Assembly: GCA_003021005.1 (NCBI GenBank)
Contig: PXRI01000029.1
Coordinates: forward strand, 1 to 35,729
Direction: 5' to 3'
Length of the DNA: 35,729 bases
DNA from: Halobacteriales archaeon QS_1_69_70
GTDB lineage: Archaea > Halobacteriota > Halobacteria > Halobacteriales > Haloarculaceae
The notes below the pieces were generated by a model. The model searched no databases. It worked only from the letters and a program-made list of their open reading frames with translations, and was not told where the DNA came from. The position numbers and the translations under genes are program-made. Shown in pieces: positions 2 to 3,604 of the stretch. The number at the start of each line of letters is the position of its first letter. Position 1 is the stretch's first letter.

Positions 2-469
2 GAGACCCGGAAGCTCCACATCTCGCTGGACGGCCTCGAGTACACCCTGGCGCTCATCGACCCCGACTCGATCCGCCAGGAGCCGGACCTCCCGGAGCTG
101 GACCTCTCGGCGGAGGTCGTCATCGAGGGCCGGGACATCGACCGGGCCGTCACGGCCGCCGACATGGTTTCGGACCACATCGCGCTTGGCGTCGATTCGG
201 ACGCCGAGGAGTTCTACGTCGACGCCGAGGGCGACACCGACGACGTCCACCTCGAACTCGGCCGCGAGGACCTCATCGCGCTGACCCCTGGGGAGGCCCG
301 CTCGCTGTTCTCGCTGGACTACCTCGACGACATGAACAAAGCCATCTCGAGTGACGCCGAGGTCACGATGGAACTCGGCGAGGAGTTCCCCGTCAAGATG
401 CACTTCGGCTACGCGGAGGGTGATGGTCATGTTACTTATATGTTAGCACCCAGAATTCAAAGCGATTGA
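2..469 (+). CDS. pcn: DNA polymerase sliding clamp PCNA, C-terminal part (5' end outside window)
   Basis: This is the C-terminal ~155 residues of the archaeal PCNA ring protein, which encircles DNA and tethers polymerases, ligase, FEN1 and other PIP-box proteins. The frame is open from base 2 and the start lies upstream of the window. The sequence is acidic and has PCNA hallmarks: the interdomain stretch around [20 protein letters not shown], the [11 protein letters not shown] helix, and the C-terminal strand ending [12 protein letters not shown], whose LAPRI is the PIP-box docking end of PCNA. All codons up to about base 418 are GC3-rich. The last 16 are not, and a homing endonuclease gene starts 10 nt after the stop (see the separate entry for 419-469). 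The identification is firm; only the true N-terminus is unknown. Confidence 0.95.
419..469 (+). other. Recoded A/T-ending 3' tail of pcn, likely endonuclease insertion junction
   Basis: From codon ggt at 419 to gat at 464, 13 of 16 codons end in A or T (ggt gat ggt cat gtt act tat, then tta, gca, aga, att, caa). The codons just before (ttc ggc tac gcg gag) follow the normal G/C-ending pattern. The encoded residues remain a normal PCNA C-terminus. I infer that this tail was brought in with the adjacent endonuclease gene and is synonymous with the sequence it replaced. That would destroy the endonuclease target while keeping PCNA functional. I looked downstream of the endonuclease (1239-1330) for a displaced original pcn tail and did not see one. 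Confidence 0.7.
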
Positions 470-479
470 GGCGAACAGA

Positions 480-1238
480 ATGCGCATGGCGACGTGCCCT
501 TCGTGCAACGAACAGTTTGAGCGGCTCGGTCTTCACTGGTGGCACGGTACGTGTCCGTATCCGGACATCGACCGGGAACGGCGAGAGATTCTGACTGGTC
601 TACTGATGGGCGATGGGTCAATACCCCGTCCCAGTGATGGTAACTCTCCGGTGTTCCGTCTCCCGATGACGAACCGTCGGTTCCTTCGGTGGTTCGACGA
701 CCGAATGGGCATCCTGACGACCGGCGTATCAATGAAGAAGACGGCGACAGAACTGGCGGAGAACAACCGGAAAACGGGGTTCAGTCCCGATGCCAAAACG
801 GAGAATTACCACGATATGCACACTGTCTGGTCGCGAACGAACCCGTTCTTCGAGAACCTCCGCCGAGGGTGGTACCCCGACGGTTCGAAGCGTTTCCCGG
901 ACGACCTCGCGCTCACGCCGGAACGGGTGAAATTCTGGTACGTCTCCGACGGCTATCTCGACATTGGCAGATGGGGACGCACCCGGGTTGAAGTCAAAGT
1001 CCGCAACGAGAGCGACCGTCTCGATTTCCTCATATCGCTGTTCCGGGATGTCGGCTTCGACCCGACGTTCAGGCGGAACGAACTCCGGTTCACCTGTGAC
1101 GACACGGAGGCGCTCATCGAGTGGATGGGTGACCCACCGGCGGGCTTCGAGTACAAATGGGCTATCGACTCGCGCGAGCGGTACCGCACGCTGAAAGAGC
1201 GAGCGTACGAGAAGCATACGACCCGAACGATAGAGTGA
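480..1238 (+). CDS. Free-standing LAGLIDADG-type homing endonuclease with N-terminal zinc knuckle
   Basis: The 252-residue protein has two LAGLIDADG-like motifs: LTGLLMGDGS near residues 39-48 and KFWYVSDGYL near 150-160. These are the helices that form the dimer-like core and supply the catalytic acidic residues. The N-terminus has a Cys-x2-Cys...His...Cys cluster (CPSC, then HWWHGTC), a zinc knuckle also seen in other archaeal homing nucleases. No splicing-domain residues are present, so this is not an intein. It lies outside the pcn frame, starting 10 nt after its stop, so it is a stand-alone gene. Base composition is less GC-rich than the neighbours, suggesting transfer. The expected role is cutting endonuclease-free pcn alleles so that the gene spreads by repair. 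Family assignment is strong; the pcn target is inferred from position. Confidence 0.82.
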   Translation: MRMATCPSCNEQFERLGLHWWHGTCPYPDIDRERREILTGLLMGDGSIPRPSDGNSPVFRLPMTNRRFLRWFDDRMGILTTGVSMKKTATELAENNRKTGFSPDAKTENYHDMHTVWSRTNPFFENLRRGWYPDGSKRFPDDLALTPERVKFWYVSDGYLDIGRWGRTRVEVKVRNESDRLDFLISLFRDVGFDPTFRRNELRFTCDDTEALIEWMGDPPAGFEYKWAIDSRERYRTLKERAYEKHTTRTIE

Positions 1239-1321
1239 CCCCTCCAGTCATCGAGCCCCCGACCGCCGGCAACCCCGACAGGTTCCCCGCGTTTTCTCCG
1301 CCCCCAGCCCGGCCGTGACAC

Positions 1322-1548: not shown

Positions 1549-2105
1549 TCGACGGCGGCCCGGGGCGACTCGACCGCTCGGAACCCCTCCAGGTCGACGC
1601 CGTGGGTGTCCAGGCCCGCCACGGGCCGGTGGTAGTCAAGCGCGTGACCGAGTTCCGACAGGGTGCCGGCGGCGCCGTCGATGGCGATGACGGCGTCGCC
1701 GTTCAGCACGACGAGGGGGTTCCGGGCATTGCCGAGGCCGGTGGCGATCGGCGTGGTGACCCACTCGTTGGCGTCGGCCCGACGGGTCGTCGGGAGGATG
1801 CCGATGGTCTCGACCGCGCGGCTCGCGTGTCGTCCCTCCCTCCGGTCGGTCCTCCCGCTCGCTCCATCCGAGGCCTCCCTTCGGTCGGCCTCGCGGCTCG
1901 CGGGTCGCTTACGCTCCCCGCTCGCTCCTAACGAGGCCTCACTTCGTTCGGCCTCGCGTGCCCCCTCGCAGGCGGAGGCCATCACGCCGCCCAGCCCGCC
2001 GCAGACCAGGGTGTGGCCGCGCTCGCCGAGCAGGCGGCCGACCTCGCGGGCCACCTCGGCCGTCTCGTCGTCGATGCTGGAGCCGCCGATGACGGAGACG
2101 CGCAT
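1518..2105 (-). CDS. LOG/TIGR00725-like nucleotide-binding protein with in-frame repeat insertion
   Basis: The 195-residue protein begins MRVSVIGGSSIDDETAEVAREV and has the Rossmann-like glycine motifs of the lysine-decarboxylase-like/LOG superfamily (CGGLGGVM; later GAAGTLSELG). It most resembles the short TIGR00725 proteins, which usually have about 150-160 residues. The excess is one block, roughly residues 51-96, rich in Arg/Glu/Ser/Ala (AERSEAS..., READRREASDGAS...), between the CEGARE helix and the VETIGILPT strand. That block is encoded by the dispersed hairpin repeat (see 1818-1960), inserted in frame at a surface loop. The family binds nucleotides or phosphoribosyl compounds; the exact substrate is unknown. 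The ATG at 2105 directly precedes the first strand and is the natural start. Confidence 0.8.
   Translation of the reverse strand: MRVSVIGGSSIDDETAEVAREVGRLLGERGHTLVCGGLGGVMASACEGAREAERSEASLGASGERKRPASREADRREASDGASGRTDRREGRHASRAVETIGILPTTRRADANEWVTTPIATGLGNARNPLVVLNGDAVIAIDGAAGTLSELGHALDYHRPVAGLDTHGVDLEGFRAVESPRAAVDYVESAVNHR
1818..1960. repeat. Dispersed hairpin repeat, copy A (two tandem units, inside LOG-like gene)
   Basis: The core ggcctcccttcggtcggcc is at 1872-1890 and occurs identically in copies B and D. The 69-bp block 1822-1890 aligns without gaps to the reverse complement of 13034-13102 (about 59 of 69 matches by eye). A second, diverged unit follows at 1891-1953, ending in gaggcctcacttcgttcggcc. 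Each unit ends in a potential hairpin with arms GAGGCC/GGCCTC and an 11-nt loop. Both units are in frame with the host gene. Confidence 0.8.
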
Positions 2106-2286
2106 GGCTCCCGGCTACCGGCGCCAGCCACCTCAACTGTGGGGTCCCATCGCACTTCCGCGTGGATCCTCGGTCGGCGGTCCGTCAAGCGATGCCGTAG
2201 AGCGTCTCCCGGTCATCGCGCTATGATAGTTCGGGCGTCGCAGGAGAAGGAGGAGGAGCTTGAAAGGGCGGTCCCGTGCCGCGTTG

Positions 2287-2448
2287 TTATTCCAGGGCGT
2301 CGTCGAGTTCCGACGCGACCTCCTCCAGGAGGTCCGAGCCGGAGAGTTCCTCCATCCGGTCGCGTAGGTGCTCCTGGCAGAGGCCGACCTTGAGGTGGTC
2401 CTTCTCGATGGCCACGTCGGCCTCCCTCTCACAGTAATGACACTGCAC
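2287..2448 (-). CDS. Small zinc-binding protein, DUF6757-like
   Basis: The 53-residue acidic protein has a CHYC pair at the N-terminus and GLCQEH about 20 residues later, a Cys2-Cys/His zinc site. An amphipathic acidic helix follows (EELSGSDLLEEVASELDDAL). It resembles the small haloarchaeal proteins I recall as DUF6757; function is unknown. I chose the GTG at 2448, giving MQCHYC..., because homologues of this type start just before the first CxxC. A TTG at 2478 would add ten residues that look unstructured. It lies 45 nt after the PHP gene on the same strand and may be co-transcribed. Confidence 0.7.
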   Translation of the reverse strand: MQCHYCEREADVAIEKDHLKVGLCQEHLRDRMEELSGSDLLEEVASELDDALE

Positions 2449-2493
2449 GGCCGGTGGTACGGTGCCGAGCGGTTTCAACTCCGCGGTATTGGC

Positions 2494-3264
2494 CTAAAGC
2501 GCCTCGCGGAACTGCCGGTAGTCGTCGGCCCCGACCCCGGCGCGGCCGAGCGTCTCGTCGTGAGCGTCGCTGCCGCCGGTGACCAACAGGTTGTACCGGT
2601 CGACGGCCCGCTCGACCGGCGCCGGATCGACGTCGCGGTCGTAGGGATAGTACCGCTCGACGGCGTCGAGGACGGCACACAGCTCCATGGCGGCCGTCGG
2701 GTCGTCGTACCGGCACGGATGTGCCAGCGAGACGAGGCCGCAGGCCTCCTCGAGGACGGCTCGGCCCTCGCGGAACGACGGGACGTCGCGGGCGACGTAG
2801 CAGGGACAGTCCGAGCCGATGACTTCGGCGAAGGCGTCCTCGTAGGTGTAGTCGGTGGCCTCGGCGATGGCGCGAGCGACGTGGGGGCGGCCCACGCCCT
2901 CCTCGATATCGACGGGCAACTCGACGCCGAGGCGGTCCTCCACGCACTCGACGATGCGGCGACCGCGTTCGACGCGGTCCCGCTGGAGGTGCTCGAGGAG
3001 CGACGCCAGCTCGGGGGTGCGGCGGACGCCGTAGCCGAGGAGGTCGATGCGCTCGTGGCCGGCGTCGACCCGGAGTTCGATGCCGTGGACCACCGTCAGC
3101 TCCCCGACCGCCCCGACCGGGTCCTGTAGGTCCGGGTGGAGCCGGTCGTGGTCGGTGACGGCGACCGCGGAGACGTCTGCTCGCCGCGCCGCGCCGGCAA
3201 GCGACTCGAGCGTCAGCGTCCCGTCGGACCGCGTCGTGTGGACGTGGAGGTCCGCGACGACCAT
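2494..3264 (-). CDS. PHP-domain metal-dependent phosphoesterase
   Basis: The 256-residue protein has the PHP metal-site motifs in order: LHVHTTRSDG (H7, H9), VTDHD (D38, H39), GIE (E63), LAHPCR (H182) and GGSDAHD (D233, H235). PHP enzymes bind two or three metals and hydrolyse phosphoesters. Stand-alone members of this size include nucleoside 3',5'-bisphosphate and oligoribonucleotide phosphatases; the substrate here cannot be told from sequence. The ATG at 3264 directly precedes the first metal-ligand strand. A tcaaag box (ctttga on the coding strand) sits about 26 nt upstream, fitting a leaderless transcript. The frame stays open upstream to 3531, but that extension is Arg/Pro-rich and not protein-like. 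Confidence 0.85.
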   Translation of the reverse strand: MVVADLHVHTTRSDGTLTLESLAGAARRADVSAVAVTDHDRLHPDLQDPVGAVGELTVVHGIELRVDAGHERIDLLGYGVRRTPELASLLEHLQRDRVERGRRIVECVEDRLGVELPVDIEEGVGRPHVARAIAEATDYTYEDAFAEVIGSDCPCYVARDVPSFREGRAVLEEACGLVSLAHPCRYDDPTAAMELCAVLDAVERYYPYDRDVDPAPVERAVDRYNLLVTGGSDAHDETLGRAGVGADDYRQFREAL

Positions 3265-3604
3265 GCCCGGCGTCGGCCCGCCGGGGTCAAAGCCCCGGCG
3301 CTTCCGGGCGACCGTCGCGGCCCACGGGCTCGCCCACGACCGGGGTCGACGGGTTCGTTCCGCACCCGCGTCTATGGGCTCGTCCTGGACTCGCGTCAGT
3401 GGATACGTGCCGGGCGCGCGACGAGGGGTTCGTTTCCCGGTCGGGCGTCTCGGGGTGTGTTCTCGAACGCTCGTCGTCCGATTCCAGTACCGGGCGCCCG
3501 TGGGGGTCGCCGCTCGAGGACTCGACCCCATCCTAAAAGGTGATTAAAGCCAGGAAGGGGAATTATAGACAACGTTCATGAAGGTCCGGTGAGTGCCATG
3601 CGGT
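3265..3604. other. Intergenic region with promoter elements
   Basis: This 340-bp gap separates the divergent PHP gene and the DUF5789-like gene. The half next to the PHP gene is GC-rich and shows no convincing coding or RNA gene. From 3533 it turns A/T-rich. An aattata box at 3561-3567 lies about 40 nt before the ATG at 3605, implying a short leader of 10-15 nt. The ctttga box for the PHP gene is at 3287-3292 on the minus strand. Confidence 0.5.

Follow-up and report, generated by a model that had tools for sequence, protein, structure and literature searches.

The window analysed here is the whole 35,729-nt stretch of contig PXRI01000029.1 from the Halobacteriales archaeon QS_1_69_70, a draft genome in 44 contigs, and it opens within pcn, the gene of the PCNA sliding clamp, which is truncated at the contig start (Table 1). 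The truncated pcn product matched Pfam PCNA_C (E = 4.4e-05) and the NCBIfam DNA polymerase sliding clamp profile (E = 1e-65). As the original prediction had stated, a free-standing LAGLIDADG gene follows at once, with its start (480) separated from the pcn stop (467-469) by a 10-nt gap, and its product matched Pfam LAGLIDADG_2 (PF03161, E = 2.5e-10) and phrog_11023, a LAGLIDADG homing endonuclease family (E = 7e-45). The assembly holds one copy of this homing endonuclease (HEN). An intein or intron was considered and rejected, as the pcn frame is unbroken to its stop, the HEN occupies a frame of its own, and Pfam revealed no splicing domain. Further downstream, a SLOG-family gene (minus strand, 1518-2105) contains an extra stretch (~1814-1967) of repeated GAGGCCTC/GGCCTCG units, which by alignment is largely absent from G395, the closest relative of the window genome.

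Table 1. Features at the pcn 3' end, in window coordinates
Feature	Position	Strand	Basis
pcn (PCNA sliding clamp), C-terminal 155 residues and stop	2..469	+	PCNA_C and NCBIfam profiles; 5' part lost at contig start
Recoded pcn tail, probably element-borne, 16 codons, 13 A/T-ending	419..466	+	codon usage and comparison with relatives
Leu codon -8 (TTA in the window; CTC/CTG in 16/16 empty congeners)	443..445	+	clearest indicator of where the enzyme probably cuts
Free-standing LAGLIDADG homing endonuclease gene, 252 aa	480..1238	+	Pfam, phrog; I-SceI by profile and fold
C6, C9, H19 and C25 of the HEN	495..554	+	invariant in 14/14 aligned sequences
Asp45, LAGLIDADG motif 1 (GLLMGDGS)	612..614	+	invariant in 14/14
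Asp157, LAGLIDADG motif 2 (FWYVSDGY)	948..950	+	invariant in 14/14
Short 3' edge of the element	1239..1257	+	native flank resumes ~1255-1258, as aligned with empty G400 (L062)

Profile and structure comparisons place the HEN near the monomeric LAGLIDADG enzymes. I-SceI was the top solved structure for a profile built from 14 HEN sequences (E = 5e-4), and an AlphaFold2 model (pLDDT 85.5) found its best PDB matches in I-SceI and I-WcaI (TM 0.61-0.63 by query length), with a predicted structure of the monomeric LAGLIDADG fold. Besides the match to the family profile, the protein carries two acidic LAGLIDADG motifs, whose invariant aspartates, Asp45 and Asp157, we take from the family to be catalytic, while the invariant cysteines and histidine near its N-terminus presumably form a metal-binding finger. 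Five HEN pairs gave dN/dS of ~0.05-0.15, and the protein is therefore under purifying selection.

The last 16 codons of pcn are of a different make from those before them. Thirteen of the 16 end in A or T, against 3 of the 30 codons just upstream, and GC3 is 0.19 in the tail, 0.94 in the pcn body, and 0.74 in the endonuclease gene, in which no 16-codon stretch holds more than 10 A/T-ending codons. When the tail residues were redrawn with the codons of seven window frames, none of 200,000 draws reached 13 and the maximum was 7; the abrupt switch from which the original prediction had set out is hence confirmed, and this simulation and the genus comparison below together rule out codon drift as its cause. 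The same prediction described the tail as synonymous, which is mostly right: relative to G395 (L061), 11 codons carry synonymous changes and 3 are identical, and 2 of the 16 residues differ (F to Y and E to D).

Comparison within the window's genus documents both empty and occupied versions of this site. Matches to pcn were found in 19 of its 20 genomes, and a HEN lies behind the gene in three of them (G000, G310, and G396, the last with internal stops); A/T-ending tail codons number 9-13 in these three and 0-3 in each of the 16 empty congeners. The nearest of the latter, G395 (pcn protein 98% identical), lacks the HEN and has a G/C-ending tail, and between it and the window 398 of 417 nt are identical in the body and 32 of 48 in the tail, such that divergence rises from 5% to 33% at a step fitted 52 nt 5' of the pcn stop (~415-419 in the window). 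On the other side, the downstream flank of a further empty congener, G400 (L062), aligns to the window from ~1255 on. By body, the window is nearest to empty G395 and G310 is nearest to empty G400, whereas the tails of the window and G310 are nearest each other. In G396, a deletion lies inside pcn before the tail (L176 ~1770-1790), which may be an assembly error.

We then compared 116 distinct pcn loci, from which two pcn paralogues (L069 and L070) were removed to leave 114, 19 with a HEN or remnant and 95 without, a HEN-free locus being one with no HEN match within at least 1,434 nt behind pcn. These 114 are a purposive sample of the window's genus, Halorubrum, genus g68, and selected relatives, and G396 (L068/L176) stands outside them, as its pcn match is interrupted. 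HEN-bearing loci differed from their nearest empty relative by a median of 3.3% in the body and 22.9% in the tail; between empty loci and their nearest empty relatives, the window's genus had medians of 9.2% (body) and 7.3% (tail), Halorubrum had 2.8% and 16.7%, and the remaining 40 loci had 4.6% and 8.3%. In 24-nt bins, the divergence step comprised the last 48 nt of pcn, and the fitted breakpoint fell 31-60 nt 5' of the stop in 17 of 19 loci against the nearest empty relative and in 14 of 19 against the second nearest. The first comparison had two exceptions, L086 (22 nt), whose own nearest HEN-free relative carries a tail of the element type, and L148, a remnant that shows no step; five of the second-nearest comparisons placed the step elsewhere or showed none, and the fits for L080 and L078 were weak (gain <5 log units). 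At the 3' side, the flank resumed 0-19 nt past the HEN stop in 13 of 19 loci and overlapped by 21 nt in L073, with no value obtained for four decayed copies and L077, and no native pcn tail was found downstream of the HEN in any of the 19 regions of 1,500-2,500 nt. The edges of the inserted unit are thus sharp in most of the sampled loci.

Further, the tail is inherited with the HEN and against the body of the gene to which it is fused. Among the 14 of 19 loci with a near-complete HEN, tail distance tracked HEN distance given the body (partial Mantel r = 0.63, p = 0.0001; 9,999 permutations) and was nearly independent of the body given the HEN (r = 0.06, p = 0.33). For the nine Halorubrum copies, r was 0.87 between tail and HEN (p = 0.0009), -0.015 between tail and body, and -0.13 between HEN and body. 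Because the tail follows the HEN and not the pcn body, we take it to be part of the mobile element. For example, a single one of 360 body positions distinguishes G110 from G044, while dS between their HENs is 0.30 and their tails are 19% different; near-identical pcn genes thus seem to have gained or exchanged the element independently. Empty sites in close relatives, the recurrent 5' breakpoint, and a tail that goes with the HEN are together what the original prediction of an element at the pcn 3' end, bringing its own tail, called for.

How widely the element occurs was assessed in 392 genomes of the order, one of which gave no pcn match. HEN relatives were present in 48 of these genomes, and a HEN or remnant stood at pcn in 16 (G000, G310, G129, G305, G228, G361, G325, G257, G110, G293, G320, G308, G044, G187, G231, and G366), in seven genera and three families, counts that are phylogenetically non-independent. 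In Halorubrum, an intact or decayed HEN stood at pcn in 12 of 52 genomes. Among the named carriers are Halorubrum sodomense, H. lipolyticum, H. californiense (a copy with a stop), H. xinjiangense, Haloparvum sedimenti, and Halarchaeum rubridurum; in the last (L004/L072), the HEN match begins 536 nt behind pcn and not immediately after it. Decay is evident in several genomes, with broken HEN frames in G404, G187 (also with a run of N), G361, and G396, C-terminal pieces in G231 and G415, and a remnant of 27 residues in G366. On a tree of the pcn body (402 nt columns, modest support), HEN presence required 17 changes, at least 9 of them forced by well-supported branches, and shuffled labels required 18.0 on average, with 148 of 500 shuffles as low as observed. 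Hence, the distribution is patchy with respect to the gene that hosts the HEN.

Among the 16 tail codons, codon -8, the Leu of Met-Leu-Ala-Pro (MLAP), best separated loci with and without the HEN. It was A/T-ending in all 13 loci with an intact HEN, in none of the 16 empty congeners, and in 22 of the 95 HEN-free loci (p = 7e-8, with kinship ignored), and the sole exception among all 19 was L076, which has native Leu-Ala codons and a HEN with an internal stop. Only four tail nucleotides of 48 separate HEN-bearing L080 from empty L146 (native CTC-GCG), of which two lie in codon -15, one in codon -8, and one in codon -7; L145, the nearest empty relative of L080 by body, shows five tail differences and itself has CTA at codon -8. 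Across the order, the exact pattern with an A/T-ending codon -8, which requires the residues MLAPRIQS and cannot match other pcn endings, occurred in 43 of 392 genomes, made up of all 12 with an intact HEN at pcn, 3 of the 4 in which it is decayed, and 28 of the 376 that lack it. Of these 28, the match in G014 is not at its pcn copy among the matches listed, and several others had no listed pcn position with which to compare. Most likely, then, the enzyme's cut site lies near the Met-Leu-Ala-Pro codons of the ordinary pcn end. Because the same Leu codon is changed in 13 of 13 intact copies, recoding would remove that site, and because native third positions are nearly all G or C, synonymous two-fold changes go to A or T, so that the bias of the tail would fit selection for an altered site.

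Some recoded tails stand without an endonuclease. The original prediction had named HEN-free relatives with the same tail as the observation that would overturn it; none of the 16 empty members of the window's genus has such a tail, and among HEN-free Halorubrum loci 11 of 39 carry an element signature, either Ala at codon -12 or the string AGAATACAAAG. The former, a V-to-A change, was found in 9 of the 39, in 8 of 19 HEN loci, and in none of 56 other empty loci, and the latter in 3 of the 39 (one also with Ala), 4 of 19, and none of 56. Searches with tblastn and blastn found no HEN remnants behind these 11 tails, and the blastn matches of Halorubrum downstream regions fell in the flanks that follow the L126 and L087 remnants. 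As HEN remnants exist at other loci, the simplest reading of these tails, judged from sequence comparison, is that they are scars of repeated invasion followed by loss of the HEN; they may instead stem from escape mutations in the host or from transfer of a tail without its HEN.

Taking these observations together, we hold it highly probable that the pcn 3' end harbors a mobile element in which the recoded last ~48 nt of pcn and its stop are joined to an I-SceI-like HEN, and whose homing would keep pcn working and leave its tail immune. The HEN would cut the ordinary pcn 3' end, near the Met-Leu-Ala-Pro codons, in cells without the element, and homologous recombination with an occupied copy would then repair the break, so that tail and HEN take the place of the native tail and a short spacer. 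The new tail would leave the essential clamp whole and free of the cut site, and the HEN could later decay or be deleted while the tail persists as a scar. PCNA is reported to be essential in Haloferax volcanii (PMC7776575), so a cut or inexact repair at the pcn end should be costly. Counting against this account are the HEN-free element-type tails with no HEN remnant found behind them, the raised tail divergence of HEN-free loci outside the window's genus, the A/T-ending codon -8 of L145 and of 11 of 332 genomes outside HEN-bearing genera, the native Leu-Ala codons of L076, and the weak breakpoint fits.

Several other histories could leave an A/T-rich tail beside a nuclease gene. Haloarchaea recombine freely, and an ordinary exchange might have swapped the pcn 3' end with that of an AT-rich haloarchaeon, the HEN being merely adjacent; the GC3 of the HEN (0.74), below that of the body, would suit such a source. 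The tail is far more AT-rich than the HEN, however, and identity to the window tail is at most 75% among the 95 HEN-free tails, against 87.5% for the most similar HEN-bearing tail. With the edge falling in the same 30-nt stretch in most lineages and tail distance following HEN distance, we consider such a swap very improbable. Still harder to credit is a regulatory or RNA-level role of the codon shift, for instance in translational coupling to the HEN gene. A possible GTG start of the HEN lies inside the recoded Ser codon AGT of the pcn tail in L074, L075, L076, and L077, and it possibly ties tail and HEN together in these four copies, yet such an overlap accounts for one codon in one subtype and not for 13 of 16, and the folding of the tail RNA was no better than that of shuffled sequences (z 0.23).

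A role for host escape deserves slightly more weight, though it too is unlikely as the whole explanation. Synonymous mutations in the cut site might have arisen as resistance, with the HEN settling beside resistant genes or with the HEN-free tails being resistant alleles. The HEN-free Halorubrum tails are indeed hypervariable (~16.7% against ~2.8% in the body) and many are only partly recoded, the element-type ones among them have no HEN remnant behind them, and A/T-ending codons -8 in HEN-free genomes are enriched in HEN-bearing genera (17 of 44 against 11 of 332 elsewhere; genera tallied by hand). Escape leaves unexplained, however, why the tails of HEN-bearing genomes with different bodies match, and why V-to-A at codon -12, a change of residue, is found at HEN loci and otherwise in Halorubrum only. 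It may nonetheless operate alongside the mobile element, which we continue to prefer.

Haloarchaeal inteins, for example those in polB and mcm, are homing endonucleases in replication genes; they are spliced, whereas the pcn element involves no protein splicing, its pcn frame being continuous and its HEN a separate gene. I-SceI and other monomeric LAGLIDADG enzymes (PF03161) have the same predicted fold as the HEN and likewise two LAGLIDADG motifs, but I-SceI is intron-encoded, while the pcn HEN is free-standing with an N-terminal Cys/His motif, and its immunity would come from the recoded gene end and not from splitting of the site. Free-standing genes of the same Pfam family are also known from Haloferax glycosylation islands, where they are reported with no such gene-end capture (PMC5867893).

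The precedent invoked by the original prediction, C-terminal replacement by fungal mitochondrial homing endonucleases, is real: mobile ORFs of this kind are described at Glomus atp6, atp9, cox2, and nad3 and at Allomyces atp6 (PMC3630166). Like them, the pcn element has a LAGLIDADG gene (in fungi also GIY-YIG) behind a core gene and, joined in frame to that gene, a foreign C-terminus with many synonymous differences. Four Glomus genes keep a native C-terminal copy, or part of one, downstream, in contrast to 0 of 19 pcn elements, a trait that is not known to be required of the type. Unlike the fungal ORFs, the pcn element resides in archaeal chromosomes, its host gene is an essential gene of replication, and many genomes between them show the site empty, intact, broken, or scar-like. 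A designed counterpart is HomeR, a home-and-rescue drive at the essential replication gene PolG2 of Drosophila, likewise with a re-coded 3' end (PMC7968924); HomeR is engineered, Cas9-based, and made for an insect, whereas the pcn element is natural and encodes one enzyme. In keeping with the original prediction, which knew of no case at archaeal pcn, the open-access literature yielded no published HEN at an archaeal pcn or sliding clamp gene, thyX, or rtcB, and subscription papers could hold one.

Beyond pcn, the next HEN relatives (37-48% identity) adjoin thyX and rtcB. Relatives that are 42-48% identical lie directly 3' of thyX at L016 (G097), L017 (G082), and L018 (G181), and in genus g33 the thyX genes with a 3' HEN (3 of 18 genomes) end in CTAGCACCA, CTCGCACCA, and ATCGCTCCG, with the last codons altered. 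CTCGCG is absent from all three of these and from 4 of 14 HEN-free congeners (present in 10 of 14), and in the eighteenth g33 genome, G176, thyX is disrupted and the HEN lies 5' of it. A HEN subgroup lies directly 5' of thyX at L019 (G238), L022 (G215), and L199 (G176), with a remnant in G390, and among the thyX heads behind these, a clear A/T shift appeared only in G215 (11 of 20 codons; 6 in G238, 5 in G390, 7 in G176, and 2-8 in HEN-free genomes). The case for recoding at thyX is therefore weak. At rtcB, the G099 locus (L026, reverse strand, oriented 1327-1488 and 1817-3292) holds a broken HEN flanked by a cut-off rtcB start and an intact rtcB; compared with rtcB of two relatives, the cut-off start matched at 102 and 98 of 126 nt and the start in use at 96 and 94, as would be expected, by a small margin, if the element had supplied a new rtcB head. 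In Halosimplex aquaticum (L084 2480-4021), two different rtcB C-terminal pieces flank a HEN relative, and no other part of rtcB was recognised in the locus.

HEN relatives of 29-40% identity are also encoded at 15 loci of IMG/VR viral contigs (L238-L252), none beside pcn, thyX, or rtcB in the viral contig loci examined, and viral contigs are possible carriers of the HEN between hosts. Empty pcn and thyX ends often have CTCGCGCC (Leu-Ala-Pro) in common, which could explain jumps between the genes. These loci point to a HEN family that captures gene ends, though outside pcn the evidence is thin. We give an even chance to the broader proposal of a natural family of home-and-rescue drives in haloarchaeal chromosomes, with HENs 3' of pcn, 3' or 5' of thyX, and 5' of rtcB, each bringing a replacement end that would mend the host gene and destroy the target of its own enzyme.

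The pcn element would thus be a selfish nuclease living at an essential gene without splicing, nature's equivalent of the engineered home-and-rescue drives, and its host group has cultured members. Public genomes display most stages of its probable life cycle, namely the empty site, the occupied site, the broken copy, and the recoded tail alone, and the element yields an exact target prediction. Finally, core genes such as pcn can carry 3' ends whose history is not that of their bodies, a caution for phylogenies based on these genes.
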